Below, one piece after another: positions 102 through 7,854 of a stretch of 64,000 nt of DNA (positions are counted from its first letter, which is position 1; every line of letters begins with the position of its first letter). This stretch comes from Myxococcota bacterium (GTDB lineage Bacteria; Myxococcota_A; UBA796; UBA9615; JAKLKC01). A program made the translations under genes and the position numbers. Below the pieces are notes generated by a model. It ran no database searches, was not told the DNA's origin, and worked only from the letters and a program-made list of their open reading frames with translations. The stretch covers positions 1-64,000 of the forward strand of contig JAKLKC010000019.1 in the NCBI GenBank assembly GCA_023150875.1, read 5' to 3'.

Positions 102-1253
102 ATGCCCCTGCACGTTGCCCTCAACGCCCTCCACCTCGTCCCCGGGGAGACCGGGGGGCAGGAGCTGTACGCCCGGCGCCTGGTGCCGGCGCTCCTCGGC
201 GCGGAGGGGGGCCTGCGGCTGACGGTGATGGCTTCCCGGGAGGGGGCTCCCTCGCTCCGGGCCGAGCCCTGGGCCGACGGAGGGCGAGCCCGGGTGGTGG
301 AGCTGCCGGTCCACTCCCGAAGCCGCGTCGCCCGGGTGGCCGCCGAGCAATCCATCCTCCCCGTGGCGGTGCTCCGGGCCCGGGCGGACCTGCTCCACAA
401 CCTCTTCACCACCGCCCCCACGCTGGCCGGCGCTCCCCAGGTCACCACCGTGCTCGACCTGATCTACAAGCGGGTGCCCGGGGCGCACCGCGGCCTGCTG
501 GGGGTCGGCATGGCCGCCCTGGTCCCCCTCGCCGCCCGCAGGTCGCGCCGGGTGATCGCCATCTCCCGCTCCGTGGCCGACGACGTCGTCCGCTGGCTCG
601 GCGTCCCCGGGGACCGCCTGGACGTGGTCCCCCTGGGACCCGGCCTGTCCGGCACCGCCCCTCCCCTTCCCGAGGCCGATCTCCGCCGCCGCCACGACCT
701 CGGGGACGCGCCCCTGGTGCTCTCGGTGTCCGCCCGCCGCCCCCACAAGAACCTGCCCCGCCTCGTGGAGGCCCTGGCCTGCCTTTCCCACCGCCCCGCG
801 CCCCTGCTGGTCCTCCCCGGCTACCCCACCGGCGACGAGGGCGCCCTGCTCTCCCACGCCCGGGCCCACGGGGTCGGGGACCGGGTCCGCCTGCTGGACT
901 GGGTGGACGAGGCCACCCTGGAGGGGCTCTACCGGGCCTCCACCTGCATGGTCTTCCCGTCCCTGGCGGAGGGCTTCGGGCTGCCGGTGCTGGAGGCGAT
1001 GGTGAGGGGCCTGCCCGTCGCCTGCTCGGACCGGACGTCGCTCCCCGAGGTCGCCGGGGACGCCGCCGTGTACTTCGACCCCGAGGACGTGGGCGGGATC
1101 GCCGCCTCCATGGGGGCGCTGCTGGGCGACGGGGAGCTCCGGGCCCGCCTCGCCGCCGCTGGCCTCGCCCGGGCCGCCGCGTTCACCTGGGAGGCCACCG
1201 CCCGGGGCACCCTGGCCTCATACCGGCGCGCCCTCGGACGGGTGGCGGCTTGA
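102..1253 (+). CDS. GT4-family glycosyltransferase
   Basis: A 383-residue GT-B fold glycosyltransferase, expected to move a sugar from a nucleotide-sugar donor onto a growing glycan at the cytoplasmic face of the inner membrane. The N-terminal half begins with a Rossmann strand and a glycine-rich acceptor-side loop (GETGGQE). The C-terminal half has the donor-binding EGFGLPVLEA motif, with the E-x7-E pattern of family GT4, followed by a proline/glutamate segment (SLPEVAG). Length is normal for the family. It overlaps the next glycosyltransferase by four bases (TTGA), so the two are probably translationally coupled. Donor and acceptor cannot be told from sequence. ATG at 102 is the only start that gives the family's N-terminus. 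Confidence 0.9.
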   Translation: MPLHVALNALHLVPGETGGQELYARRLVPALLGAEGGLRLTVMASREGAPSLRAEPWADGGRARVVELPVHSRSRVARVAAEQSILPVAVLRARADLLHNLFTTAPTLAGAPQVTTVLDLIYKRVPGAHRGLLGVGMAALVPLAARRSRRVIAISRSVADDVVRWLGVPGDRLDVVPLGPGLSGTAPPLPEADLRRRHDLGDAPLVLSVSARRPHKNLPRLVEALACLSHRPAPLLVLPGYPTGDEGALLSHARAHGVGDRVRLLDWVDEATLEGLYRASTCMVFPSLAEGFGLPVLEAMVRGLPVACSDRTSLPEVAGDAAVYFDPEDVGGIAASMGALLGDGELRARLAAAGLARAAAFTWEATARGTLASYRRALGRVAA

Positions 1254-2524
1254 AGATCGCCCTGGTGTACGACGCCGTCTACCCCTGGGTGCGCGGCGGG
1301 GGCGAGGTCAACGTCCGGGGCCTCGCCGAGCGCCTCGCCGCCCGGGGTCACGCCGTCGACGTGGTGGGGATGAAGTGGTGGGAGGGCCCGCCTGAGCGCG
1401 AGGAGGACGGGTTTGGCGAAGCCAAACGCCCAGGGCCCGCCGCCTGCGGCGGAATAGGGTGCGGGACGCACCCGAAAGGGCCCTGGGCCGGACCCGAGGG
1501 CAGGGCCCAGGATGGCCCTGACCGCGGGTTCCGCCTGGTGGGGGCGTGTCCCTCCTCCCCCCTCTACCGCGAGGACGGCCGGCGGCGCTTCGAGCCCCCC
1601 CTGCTCTTCGCCGCCGGGGTGGCGCGCCACTTCATCCGGCGGCGCTACGACGTCGTGGACTGCTGCGCCTTCCCCTACATGCCCGCCTTGGGCCTCGTCC
1701 CCCTCCTGCGGGCTCGGCGGATGCCCCTCACCCTGACCTGGTTCGAGGTGTGGGGGAGCTACTGGCGGGAGTACCTGGGCCGGAAGGGGCGTGTCGCCGA
1801 GGGGATCGAGCGCGCCGTCGCCCGAGGCGCCCGCTGGCACCTGGCGATCTCCCCCCTGACCGCGTCGCGCCTGCGGGCTCTCGCCCCCGCCGCCCGTGTC
1901 CGGACCATCCCCTCGGCCTGCGAGGTGTCCACCCCCACCGGTGTTCACCTTGATCCCTATAGGATCGGGTGGTGCGGTCGCGCCCTGCCCTTCAAGGATC
2001 TCCCGGTCCTTCTCGGCGCGCTGGCCCGCCTGCCCCGGGACGAGCCCTGGCACCTGTCGGTGGTGGGGGACGGCCCCTCCCTCCCGGAGTGGAAGGAGAG
2101 GGCGAGGGCGTTGGGGGTCCAGGACCGGGTGGACTGGCTCGGCTTCCTGCCCACCCAGGAGGAGGTCTTCCGGGTCCTCGCCGGCTGCGGAGCGGTGGTC
2201 CAGACCTCCCGGCGGGAGGGGCAGGGCAAGTCCGGGCTGGAGGCGCTGGCCCTGGGGCGACCCCTCGTGTGCGCCGCCCACCCCGAGGTCGCCACCACGG
2301 GCTTCGTCGAGGACGGCGTCTCGGCCCTGCTCTACCCCGCGGGCGACGAGGGCGCGCTGGCCCGGGCCCTGCTCCGCCTGGCGCGGGAGGAGGGGCTCCG
2401 GGAGCGCCTCGCCGCCGGGGCGGCCCGGGTCGCCGCGGGGCTGAGGTGGGAGGCGATCCTCCCCGCCGTGGAAGCCCACTATGACGAGGTGGCGGGGACG
2501 CCGAGGGGTTCGAGACCGAGGTAG
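1250..2524 (+). CDS. GT4-family glycosyltransferase with in-frame palindromic insertion (copy 1)
   Basis: A 424-residue GT-B glycosyltransferase. The start is a TTG overlapping the previous stop (TTGA), giving the expected N-terminus with a Rossmann strand and glycine-rich loop (KIALVYDA, then RGGGEVN). The donor site is EGQGKSGLEALALG near the C-terminus. It is very similar to the gene ending at 7854, but carries about 38 extra residues (roughly 53-91) that the other copy lacks. The extra segment is encoded by a block of nested inverted repeats (1408-1529), is rich in Gly, Pro and Ala, and keeps the frame open. It lies shortly after the first beta-alpha unit, probably in a surface loop. Function could be retained; this is inference. 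Confidence 0.85.
   Translation: MKIALVYDAVYPWVRGGGEVNVRGLAERLAARGHAVDVVGMKWWEGPPEREEDGFGEAKRPGPAACGGIGCGTHPKGPWAGPEGRAQDGPDRGFRLVGACPSSPLYREDGRRRFEPPLLFAAGVARHFIRRRYDVVDCCAFPYMPALGLVPLLRARRMPLTLTWFEVWGSYWREYLGRKGRVAEGIERAVARGARWHLAISPLTASRLRALAPAARVRTIPSACEVSTPTGVHLDPYRIGWCGRALPFKDLPVLLGALARLPRDEPWHLSVVGDGPSLPEWKERARALGVQDRVDWLGFLPTQEEVFRVLAGCGAVVQTSRREGQGKSGLEALALGRPLVCAAHPEVATTGFVEDGVSALLYPAGDEGALARALLRLAREEGLRERLAAGAARVAAGLRWEAILPAVEAHYDEVAGTPRGSRPR
1408..1529. repeat. In-frame multi-hairpin palindromic insertion
   Basis: Compared with the paralogue at 6770-7854, about 120 bp are inserted here. In order: a perfect 7-bp stem with a GAA loop (GTTTGGC/GCCAAAC, 1411-1427); an 11-bp inverted repeat GCCCAGGGCCC (1428-1438) and GGGCCCTGGGC (1478-1488); and, between those arms, two more hairpins, CCGCC/GGCGG (1440-1452) and GGGTGCG/CGCACCC (1457-1473). 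On paper this folds as a multibranch structure. The reading frame is kept. It resembles the idea of Rickettsia palindromic elements (repeats inserted in frame in genes), but I do not claim homology. No second copy was noticed in the window. Confidence 0.75.
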
Positions 2525-2883: not shown

Positions 2884-4329
2884 CTACCGCGACTCCGAGG
2901 GATAGCCGGGTGCGCCGATCGCGATCTCTGGGAGGCCGTCGGCATCCAGATCCGGGATCGCGGCGACCGCATCCCCGCTCATGCCCCACGGGACCCGACC
3001 GTGGATGGAGACGAGCACCGCGTCCGGATCGGTCTCATCGACGCTGCGGCCTTGAAGGAGCGCCGCACCAGAGACCACCCAGGTCCGACCTGCGTAGTCG
3101 TCCGGGCACGGGCTCCCGATGAGCACATCGGCCTTCCCGTCATCGTCCATGTCTGCGAGGGCCGACATCGGGAAGTCCCCCCAGACCGTGGATGGCCCAC
3201 ACTCCACGACGAAGGTCCCCGATGCCGACGCGACCCCGAAACGGCTCCCGGAGCACTCAGCGGGAGAGAGGAAGAGGGAGACTTGGGCAGGCCCCGTCAT
3301 GCCATACTCCCCAGAGTGATAGGCCATCAGGACATCGCCGCGACCATCCCCGTCCACGTCCCCTGCCGACGCGAACCATCGCATGTTCCTCACGACATCG
3401 TCGCCGCCGAGAGTGAAACAGGGCTCCTCCGTTCCGAATGTACCACCAGATGCCAGCCGAGCACCCGAGAAGGCGCGCGCCGACATAACGTCATCCTCGC
3501 CGCCGTCGTAACCCAAGGTGTCCCTGTGGGGTAGGAGCACGTCGGCGCGGCCATCCCCATCCACGTCCCCGATCGGTACGGGTCTCTCGGTGCCCGACCC
3601 CACATCCCCGACCACGGTCGCAATGGCGAGATCGGCGATCTCGTAGCGGCCTCCCTCGCCAAGGTCACTCCCCGACAACAAGTACGCGACGCCGCCGCGC
3701 CCCATGACTGTGTCGCCGACTCCGTCGCCGGTCGCGTCTCCCACCGGCACAGCGAACTCGACCGCCCCCTCCCCGTCGTATAGCACGACGTCTGCGATCG
3801 ACATGTCGAACTCCACCTGGGACGTGACCGACGCAGCGAAGACGATGCACCCCGAATCCTGATTTCCTCCGGGGTCGCAAGGACCCGCGTAGAGCAAGTC
3901 GCCCAGAGCGTCTCCGTCCAGATCACCCGCCCCTTGCACGTGGAGGCGCTCCGGGCCGACACCGCCACCGTCCTTCAGTCTCATCGTCGCGTACGAGAGT
4001 CCGAGCGACACGTCGGACGGGTCCAGAAGCGTGTCTCCCGAGACAATGTACGCACGACCGGATCCTGGGGCACCGACCAAGAGTCCCGCCATCCCATCGC
4101 CGGTCTGGTCGCCGGATGAACCAAGATAGCGCCCACTCGCTTCCTTCTGGAACACACCCGTCCTCCTCACATCACCCATTTCCACTTCGAGGGTCGAGAC
4201 GCCATCGAGGGTACTGGAGAGGAACACGAAGGCGGCGCCGTACTCGAACTGCCACGTCGATCTCTCCGGCGTGCAACCGGCCGCCAGGGCCAGGAGAAAT
4301 GTCGTCGTGGAAGTGCGAAGTGGGGACAT
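2884..4329 (-). CDS. FG-GAP repeat lipoprotein (third gene of cassette A)
   Basis: About 481 residues from the ATG at 4329. That start gives a compact lipoprotein signal (MSPLRTSTTT, hydrophobic core, lipobox LAAGC); ATG 4368 is an in-frame alternative. The mature protein has repeated FG-GAP/integrin-like calcium loops of the type GDVDGDGRADVL, DMDDDGKADVLIG and DLDADGLPEIAIG, spaced as in a seven-bladed propeller. It is probably anchored at the outer membrane and exposed. It lies last in a minus-strand run after the frameshifted metalloprotease and the exported partner. In the paralogous cassette B this position is held by an unrelated lipoprotein. GC content is visibly lower than in the flanking glycosyltransferases. 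Confidence 0.85.
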   Translation of the reverse strand: MSPLRTSTTTFLLALAAGCTPERSTWQFEYGAAFVFLSSTLDGVSTLEVEMGDVRRTGVFQKEASGRYLGSSGDQTGDGMAGLLVGAPGSGRAYIVSGDTLLDPSDVSLGLSYATMRLKDGGGVGPERLHVQGAGDLDGDALGDLLYAGPCDPGGNQDSGCIVFAASVTSQVEFDMSIADVVLYDGEGAVEFAVPVGDATGDGVGDTVMGRGGVAYLLSGSDLGEGGRYEIADLAIATVVGDVGSGTERPVPIGDVDGDGRADVLLPHRDTLGYDGGEDDVMSARAFSGARLASGGTFGTEEPCFTLGGDDVVRNMRWFASAGDVDGDGRGDVLMAYHSGEYGMTGPAQVSLFLSPAECSGSRFGVASASGTFVVECGPSTVWGDFPMSALADMDDDGKADVLIGSPCPDDYAGRTWVVSGAALLQGRSVDETDPDAVLVSIHGRVPWGMSGDAVAAIPDLDADGLPEIAIGAPGYPSESR

Positions 4330-6681: not shown

Positions 6682-7854
6682 ATGACCCGGACACGTCAAC
6701 CCGTGGCCTTGAACATACAGATCGGGGCCGAACCAGTCAAGCCCAGCTCGTCCGTCGGTCGCCCGGTCCGGGGCCTCGCCGAACGCCTCGCCGCCCGCGG
6801 GCACGCCGTCGACGTGGTGGGGATGAAGTGGTGGGAGGGCCCCGCGGTGCGCAGGGAGGACGAATTCCGCCTCGTGGGGGCGTGTCCCTCCTCCCCCCTC
6901 TACCGCGAGGACGGCCGACGGCGCTTCGAGCCCCCCCTCCTCTTCGCCGCCGGGGTGGCGCGCCACTTCGCCCGGCGGCGCTACGACCTCGTGGACTGCT
7001 GCGCTTTCCCCTACCTGCCCGCCCTGGGCCTCATCCCGCTCCTGCGGGCGCGGCGGATCCCCCTCACCCTGACCTGGTTCGAGGTGTGGGGAAGCTACTG
7101 GCGGGAGTACCTGGGCCGGAGGGGGCGTGTCGCGGAGGGGATCGAGCGCGCCGTCGCCCGGGGCGCCCGCTGGCACCTGGCCCACTCCCCCATGACCGCG
7201 TCGCGCCTGCGCGCCATCGCCCCCGCCGCCCGTGTCCGGACCATCCCCTCGGCCTGCGAGGTGTCCACCCCCACCGGTGTTCACCTTGATCCCTATAGGA
7301 TCGGGTGGTGCGGTCGCGCCCTGCCCTTCAAGGATCTCCCGGTCCTCCTCGGCGCGCTGGCCCGCCTGCCCCGGGACGAGCCCTGGCGCCTGTCGGTGGT
7401 GGGGGACGGCCCCTCCCTTCCGGAGTGGAAGCAGACGGCCCGGGCGCTGGCGGTCCAGGACCGGGTGGAATGGCTCGGCTTCCTGCCCACCCAGGAGGAG
7501 GTCTTCCGGGTCCTCGCCGGCTGCGGAGCGGTGGTCCAGACGTCCCGGCGGGAGGGGCAGGGCAAGTCAGGACTGGAGGCGCTGGCGCTGGGGCGACCCC
7601 TCGTGTGCGCCTCCCACCCTGACGTCGCCACCACGGGCTTCGTCGAGGACGGCGTCTCGGCCCTCCTCTACCCCGCGGGCGACGAGGGCGCGCTGGCCCG
7701 GGCCCTGCTCCGCCTGGCGCGGGAGGAGGGGCTCCGGGAGCGCCTCGCTGCCGGGGCGGCCCGGGTCGCCGCGGGGCTGAGGTGGGAGGCGATCCTCCCC
7801 GCCGTGGAAGCCCACTACCGCGAGGTGGCGGGGGCGGGCGAGGGGGGAAATTAG
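6682..7854 (+). CDS. GT4-family glycosyltransferase, 5'-truncated duplicate (copy 2)
   Basis: From about 6770 the product follows copy 1 (1250-2524) almost residue for residue, including the C-terminal donor site EGQGKSGLEALALG, without the palindromic insertion. The first 30 residues do not match copy 1: the N-terminal Rossmann strand and the glycine-rich loop (KIALVYDA, GGGEVN) are missing and replaced by unrelated sequence from cassette A. Since that loop is important in GT-B enzymes, this copy is probably inactive or needs another partner. The open frame is intact and differences from copy 1 are scattered, so this is an older duplicate, not an exact assembly repeat. The ATG at 6682 is a guess. 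Confidence 0.65.
   Translation: MTRTRQPVALNIQIGAEPVKPSSSVGRPVRGLAERLAARGHAVDVVGMKWWEGPAVRREDEFRLVGACPSSPLYREDGRRRFEPPLLFAAGVARHFARRRYDLVDCCAFPYLPALGLIPLLRARRIPLTLTWFEVWGSYWREYLGRRGRVAEGIERAVARGARWHLAHSPMTASRLRAIAPAARVRTIPSACEVSTPTGVHLDPYRIGWCGRALPFKDLPVLLGALARLPRDEPWRLSVVGDGPSLPEWKQTARALAVQDRVEWLGFLPTQEEVFRVLAGCGAVVQTSRREGQGKSGLEALALGRPLVCASHPDVATTGFVEDGVSALLYPAGDEGALARALLRLAREEGLRERLAAGAARVAAGLRWEAILPAVEAHYREVAGAGEGGN

Follow-up and report, generated by a model that had tools for sequence, protein, structure and literature searches.

The Rickettsia palindromic elements (RPEs) are palindromic repeats of about 100–150 nt that occur both within genes, in frame, and in intergenic DNA. REP/BIME sequences and MITEs are likewise short, non-coding and palindromic, and are presumably moved in trans. 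Another arrangement is that of rtT in Escherichia coli K-12 (RtT, RF00391), which consists of tandem units located behind a tRNA gene in the tyrT/tyrV operon. It comprises four units of 111 nt each, counted from the arm to the tRNA-end copy, with a hairpin core between the two. The arm, GGGGAAGG(A/G)T, is antisense to the T-arm of tRNA-Tyr, perfectly so in three of the four units, and the copy closing each unit reproduces the 3' end of the tRNA (AATCCTTCCCC...CCA). Sequences of this kind occur at 1–10 places per E. coli genome, and rtT has been reported to be an RNA processed out of the primary tRNA transcript.

Repeats within genes are also on record in Deltaproteobacteria. As described in the available text of the reports, Geobacter bemidjiensis carries a multicopy family whose insertions in protein-coding genes occur in every frame and cause no frameshifts (PMC2996986), and another repeat family occurs within genes in Geobacter metallireducens (PMC2700814). 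The first-pass annotation of the DNA studied here, in which nothing similar to the in-frame elements of Rickettsia was said to be described for this kind of organism, was in this respect not quite right.

A palindromic element in a glycosyltransferase gene

The window, i.e., the whole stretch of DNA analyzed, consists of 64,000 nt of contig JAKLKC010000019.1 from a Myxococcota bacterium. The multi-hairpin palindromic element annotated at 1408–1529 proved to be real: the RNA fold of this segment reaches -83.6 kcal/mol (z -5.5), none of 200 shuffles folding as well, and the opposite strand folded as DNA gives a z of -6.6. The structure is branched, as had been proposed, and includes five helices (H1 and P2–P5, Table 1) instead of the four inverted-repeat pairs first counted. 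H1 occupies, in the alignments, the position where the tRNA-linked relatives described below have an arm antisense to the tRNA, and the end of P5 corresponds to the border with their tRNA 3' end copy. The reading of the GGA loops as CsrA sites was rejected, since several P4 loops have TGA instead of GGA (A11). In an Rfam scan of 25 locus entries, no family exceeded the gathering cut-off on the element.

The element interrupts the host protein between EEDG and FRLVG, and the translated frame stays open throughout. Its absence from the paralogue, pointed out in the first-pass annotation, is confirmed by an empty site in a 95% identical copy, which reads GGAGGACGAATTCCGCC in the alignment versus GGAGGACGGG[...]TTCCGCC in the host gene. 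The frame is kept, as had been stated, and the gain amounts to 39 codons rather than about 38 residues. The ends are uncertain by a few bases, GGGTT being present at both sides. Since the paralogue lacks the element, the insertion must either be younger than the gene duplication or have been cleanly lost from one copy; the former is simpler. This comparison with the empty paralogue shows that the element has moved. Four of its six reading frames are open, so that an uninterrupted frame is not remarkable, and the in-frame insertion needs no special explanation.

The duplication itself, which covers most of the glycosyltransferase gene (1313–2508 and 6766–7848), is recent and lies within 6 kb. 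The similarity starts only at codon 22 of the host gene copy, and over the 326 codons compared, synonymous and non-synonymous codons account for 26 differences each.

Table 1. Coordinates of the window features, and places of related sequences at other loci
Feature	Position	Strand	Description
Host gene, GT4-type glycosyltransferase	1250..2524	+	Pfam Glyco_transf_4 and Glycos_transf_1; TTG start; 424 codons
Dispersed palindromic element	1412..1528	+	net insertion 117 nt = 39 codons; from paralogue comparison, other copies and R3 match
Hairpin H1	1411..1427	+	GTTTGGC-GAA-GCCAAAC; from fold and alignments
Stem P2	1428-1438 paired with 1478-1488 (whole 1428..1488)	+	encloses P3 and P4; pairs covary across the family
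Hairpin P3	1440-1452	+	loop TGC; inside P2
Hairpin P4	1457-1473	+	loop GGA; inside P2
Hairpin P5	1492..1529	+	internal loops; loop CAGGAT
Paralogue without insertion	about 6766-7848	+	95% DNA identity to host gene; empty site about 6862-6866
tRNA-tied places, own genome	C148; C105; C171; C102 (twice); C107; C142		Ala-CGC; Glu-CTC; Arg-CCG; Leu-TAA; His-GTG; contig edge
TGCTTCGCCCTTTGGGCTACGCACGGCACGCCAT-like sequence	L038, about 3839-3875; L040, L047, L065		in L040, L047 and L065, after distal CCA

Dispersed copies in the same genome

The genome to which the window belongs (G000; 6.9 Mb, 180 contigs, 98% complete, 1.2% contaminated) was searched for further copies by blastn. Near-full copies were found on contigs C40 (97% over 122 nt), C111 (92% over 131 nt) and C2 (90% over 116 nt), and a 42-nt partial copy on C131, which disposes of the single-copy alternative considered in the first-pass annotation. 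The check proposed in the first-pass annotation, whether other copies sit in frame in genes, gave the following picture: a GT2 gene begins about 24 nt downstream of the C2 copy and is followed by an AAA/DUF4143 gene, the C111 copy lies upstream of a MarR-like gene, and the C40 copy has no gene support. Since only the window copy, one of the four near-full copies, was shown to be inside a gene, the data give no sign that in-frame insertion is preferred.

All four copies have H1 in place of the arm, in the form GTTTGGC-GAA (or GTA)-GCCAAAC or a near variant. No tRNA was found at any of the four loci, nor a tRNA gene anywhere in the window, and within the genome searches made, this dispersed form is known from this genome only. 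The ends of the four copies show no clear terminal inverted repeats of the kind expected of a MITE, and a consistent target duplication is absent, GGGTT occurring at both ends in only two of them. A contig end is found within 2 kb of the copies on C40, C91, C111, C131, and C142, possibly a result of the assembly breaking at hairpins or arrays.

Relatives located behind tRNA genes

A model built from the four dispersed copies (R1) identified diverged copies behind tRNA genes, and two later rounds (R2, then R3) followed, R3 being a covariance model built from 12 tRNA-linked cores only. R3 retrieves all four dispersed copies in the window's genome: C40 (E 7.5e-13), the window element (1422–1534, E 4.3e-11), C111 (E 3.7e-10) and C2 (E 8.9e-10). 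The recovery of the dispersed copies by a model of tRNA-linked cores alone demonstrates that the window element is related to the tRNA-linked family. R3 finds 12 places in this genome at E 0.05 or better: the four dispersed copies, seven places linked to a tRNA or to the 3' end of one (Table 1) and one on C165 without a tRNA. Elsewhere, it finds four places in the metagenome-assembled genome SL3-B22.2, two in Zod_Metabat.852, and one in each of two relatives from the same order.

Searching 84,980 species genomes with a degenerate core pattern yielded 13 loci; in viral contigs, the pattern had no match. Seven of these loci have an R2 match, all from genomes titled Deltaproteobacteria, Myxococcales or uncultured proteobacterium, and a tRNA gene lies directly upstream in six of the seven; the other six loci, which have neither an R2 match nor a tRNA, were discarded as chance. 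Among 41 genomes related to SL3-B22.2 (itself counted), three have a match. A blastn search with the tRNA-plus-unit stretch of Zod_Metabat.852 matched all 39 relatives, many by the tRNA alone, and in ten genomes chosen among those with unit matches, a biased sample, R3 finds 1–9 places each (44 in all). Counting the window's genome, R2 matches occur in 3 of the 71 genomes of its class and R3 matches in 4 of the 377 genomes of its phylum, where ten candidates were scored per genome and the negatives are weak, the C2 copy retrieved in the direct search having been missed there. One of the four phylum matches, G191, comes from another family and carries the same unit pair as contig C102 of the window's genome. 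The C102 locus (L024) is identical to L039 (JABWCM010000157.1, Myxococcales MAG_56) over 2490/2490 bases, so a stray contig is probably present in one of the bins sharing these units.

The set aligned consists of 61 R3 matches at E 1e-5 or better, from 54 loci. Refetched arrays (L097 and L106, cf. L113; L102, cf. L110) were left out, as were 14 of the 44 places mentioned above, 30 having been fetched, and L105 (E 0.0025), which resembles coding DNA, was dropped. A tRNA gene lies 24–333 nt upstream on the same strand in 49 of the 61 matches, involving 18 tRNA species, with serine tRNAs in 28 of the 49. The 12 matches without such a gene are the four dispersed copies, C165, two cases at a contig edge that retain a tRNA 3' end (L012, L066), and five in which ARAGORN calls no gene but a copy resembling a tRNA 3' end is present (L021, L047, L067, L112, L116), some of which show tRNA 3' remnants upstream.

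The order downstream of the tRNA is as follows: often an apparent terminator (judged by eye), the antisense arm, the core, and the tRNA 3' end from C56 to CCA. The arm covers tRNA positions of about 56–65, in the T-arm, and extends further in L023, L011, L108, L092, and L107. The core consists of about 110 nt of covarying hairpins, its length being constant at 109–115 nt in full units. Of the 49 tRNA 3' end copies, 34 are free of mismatches over their first 18 nt, 6 have one mismatch, and 9 have two to eight. Direct repeats, measured in 19 units, are 17–27 nt long in 11 of them, 68–85 nt with the terminator included in L010, L011, L022, and L048, and 0–14 nt in L021, L047, L067, and L068. Tandem arrays reach three units. 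At Leu-TAA (C102) and Ala-GGC (SL3-B22.2), the CCA is absent from the proximal tRNA and present on the distal copy, which looks as if the latter were the displaced original end; L066 shows the reverse, with a complete CCA at the proximal tRNA and an incomplete one at the distal copy.

Several loci have features of their own. In L113 (1319–2033), three tandem units lie behind tRNA-Ser(GGA), with an SRP RNA gene directly after them, and in L035 (about 406–470), the unit behind tRNA-Ser(GCT) has decayed and carries an internal deletion, next to an intact unit behind tRNA-Ser(TGA). The upstream tRNA is reduced to a 3' fragment or unrecognisable in L047, L067, L112, and L116, as if an island had integrated into the tRNA and displaced its end along with the unit. 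A second short conserved sequence, approximately TGCTTCGCCCTTTGGGCTACGCACGGCACGCCAT, follows the CCA of tRNAs or distal copies in SL3-B22.2 and G381 (Table 1) and is possibly another tRNA-linked repeat. No tRNA-linked family such as that described here was found in Rfam 15 or in the literature searched, in which the Geobacter reports were compared by their text.

Correspondence between the arm and its tRNA

In 44 distinct pairs, the pairing of the arm with its own tRNA-end copy averages 9.35 versus 7.25 with those of other units, a difference reached in none of 20,000 permutations; in an earlier set of 18, the values were 10.4 and 6.8, again with 0/20,000. Near-alike cores sharing the core start carry different, fitting arms at Gln-TTG, Pro-TGG, and Ser-CGA, while the Arg-CCT arm fits more poorly. 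At Pro-CGG, the unusual T-loop CAAATCC is matched by an arm GGATTTG. The distal copy is damaged in L108, L092, and L107, and the arm pairs there with the intact upstream tRNA over 18–22 positions with a few mismatches; in L038, the arm has drifted.

In 32 of 42 loci, the core has its nearest relative at another tRNA species, a count biased towards "different" by the several species occurring once. In the other ten, the nearest relative lies in another genome behind a tRNA of the same species, which speaks in part for vertical descent. Mean core identity amounts to 0.81 within a genome at different tRNAs, 0.79 between genomes at the same tRNA, and 0.70 otherwise, which suggests that movement and descent are both present. 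The match between arm and tRNA could be kept by selection on the standing unit rather than set at insertion.

Covariation and the folding strand

In the 61 rows, 80.5% of the cells pair and both-sided changes occur in 30 of the 35 pairs (349 cells), the alignment having been fitted to the model and thus leaning towards structure. None of 500 shuffles reached any of five covariation measures, and sliding the partners abolishes the signal. G-U accounts for 43 of the 1688 standard pairs in the units (2.5%) versus 83 of 1286 (6.5%) in 54 tRNAs of the same loci. Because G-A cells (282) greatly outnumber C-T cells (7), the tRNA-sense strand seems to be the one that folds. The near-absence of G-U had been taken as proof of DNA-level selection, an argument weakened when 2/360 in 12 rows became 43/1688 in 61 rows, with 29 A-C cells; G-U still exceeds A-C, and RNA is accordingly a possible folded form.

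Comparison with known systems

The tRNA-linked units share with rtT the tandem arrangement behind a tRNA gene, the antisense arm, the terminal copy of the tRNA 3' end, and the tandem G-A stem. A unit lying behind a tRNA together with a copy of its 3' end is found in the tRNA-linked relatives, but not in the window copy. The present family differs from rtT, examined at tyrT/tyrV only, in involving 18 tRNA species and in having a dispersed form. Sequence relation is not detectable: R3 scores 8.7 bits on rtT (E 0.16), RF00391 has no match in the window's genome (the E. coli control being positive), and no RtT match was obtained in the 25 locus entries. We therefore consider rtT, by analogy, as the same kind of arrangement and not as a proven relative.

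The likeness to RPEs consists in the size, the palindromes, and the in-frame site, and was assessed by these features; here only one of four copies is shown to lie in a gene, and the relatives are tied to tRNAs. The multicopy sequences of Geobacter resemble the window element in being short repeats of Deltaproteobacteria, some of them in genes, as far as the available text of the reports goes (PMC2700814, PMC2996986). In the comparison with these text descriptions, the families with heptanucleotide repeats and a central palindrome GRCGTAGCGCTGCTACGCC do not match, and the element may yet be identical to one of the families. Unlike REP/BIME sequences and MITEs, the element shows no GTAG-type tag and no terminal inverted repeats. 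A Y1/RAYT transposase, considered as the mover, shows no association with the element in these draft genomes: the Y1 counts are 1 in the window's genome (G000), 7 in both G071 and G072, and zero in G005, G006, G381, and G403, and Y1 is present in G382 and G383, where no element was found.

Origin of the window element

The window element is quite probably a non-autonomous mobile palindromic repeat that represents the dispersed form of the tRNA-linked core family and lies in frame by chance. The usual site of the multi-hairpin cores is directly behind tRNA genes, where the unit has an arm antisense to the T-arm and is followed by a tRNA 3' end copy, which leaves the tRNA whole. A variant with the plain hairpin H1 instead of the arm would have spread recently to at least four non-tRNA places in this genome, one landing being in the glycosyltransferase gene, where the 117-nt insertion would have kept the frame by chance and have no function in this position. 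The element would have moved in trans, by a mobilising enzyme recognising a folded single strand, more likely of DNA than of RNA. Cores would move between tRNA genes, the arm then being copied from the new tRNA or selected to match it.

A more specific proposal, to which we give a rather low probability, is that the arm defines the target. A gene-less element of about 130 nt would pair with tRNA genes and insert at the T-loop, restoring the tRNA, and every move would rewrite the arm from the new target, for instance through foldback copying of the neighbouring strand. According to this proposal, rtT would illustrate the same principle, being either unrelated or very distantly related, and the loss of the arm would have freed the window variant to enter other sites, including genes.

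It seems unlikely, on balance, that the tRNA-linked unit is instead a structured RNA with a function of its own, released from the primary transcript of the tRNA, with the dispersed copies as pseudogenes or retro-copies. The strong covariation, the fact that rtT has the same layout and is listed as an RNA in Rfam, the reading of the units in the direction of the tRNA, and the conserved G-A pairs on the tRNA-sense strand only would be in keeping with such an RNA. However, an apparent intrinsic terminator, again judged by eye, separates the tRNA from the unit at many loci (L010, L011, L022, L023, L029, L040, L048), the G-U fraction is lower than in the tRNAs of the same loci, and decayed units are tolerated (L035, L114).

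An improbable origin of the units is that they are remnants of genomic islands, that is, collapsed attL/attR pairs of integrase-borne islands whose left-over attP arms form the hairpins. The T-loop is a known crossover site of integrases, and the tRNA 3' end copy starts there, with displaced CCA ends at two loci. Against this, the core length is constant, the stems covary in many genomes, the tandem arrays contain up to three units, and no cargo or integrase was found in any unit read; a displaced 3' fragment is present, but the inserts, of about 110–200 nt, are too small for an integrase gene.

Still less credible is an element of the Rickettsia type, for which selection or target choice favors in-frame insertion in proteins. 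The first-pass annotation was correct in seeing a palindromic element in frame in a gene, and the length is divisible by three, with four of six frames open. Against such a type, only one copy among four is shown to lie in a gene, the L007 copy has a stop codon in the frame that the window copy uses, and the tRNA-linked relatives are non-coding. "Rickettsia-type" seems to denote a likeness and not membership. Inverted repeats are common at high G+C, but the shuffles, the copies elsewhere, and the paralogue without the element refute the view that the segment is a chance structure or ordinary coding sequence that has diverged within a high-GC gene.

Of wider importance than the window element, read here as a dispersed member lying in frame by chance, is the tRNA-linked family itself, with an antisense arm matched to the tRNA. 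It connects two kinds of repeat that have been treated separately, the small palindromes that come to lie within proteins and the tRNA-linked repeats, of which most is known from a single E. coli operon. The strong covariation, the constant core length, and the arm following the tRNA make it testable whether a gene-less element may define its target by pairing.
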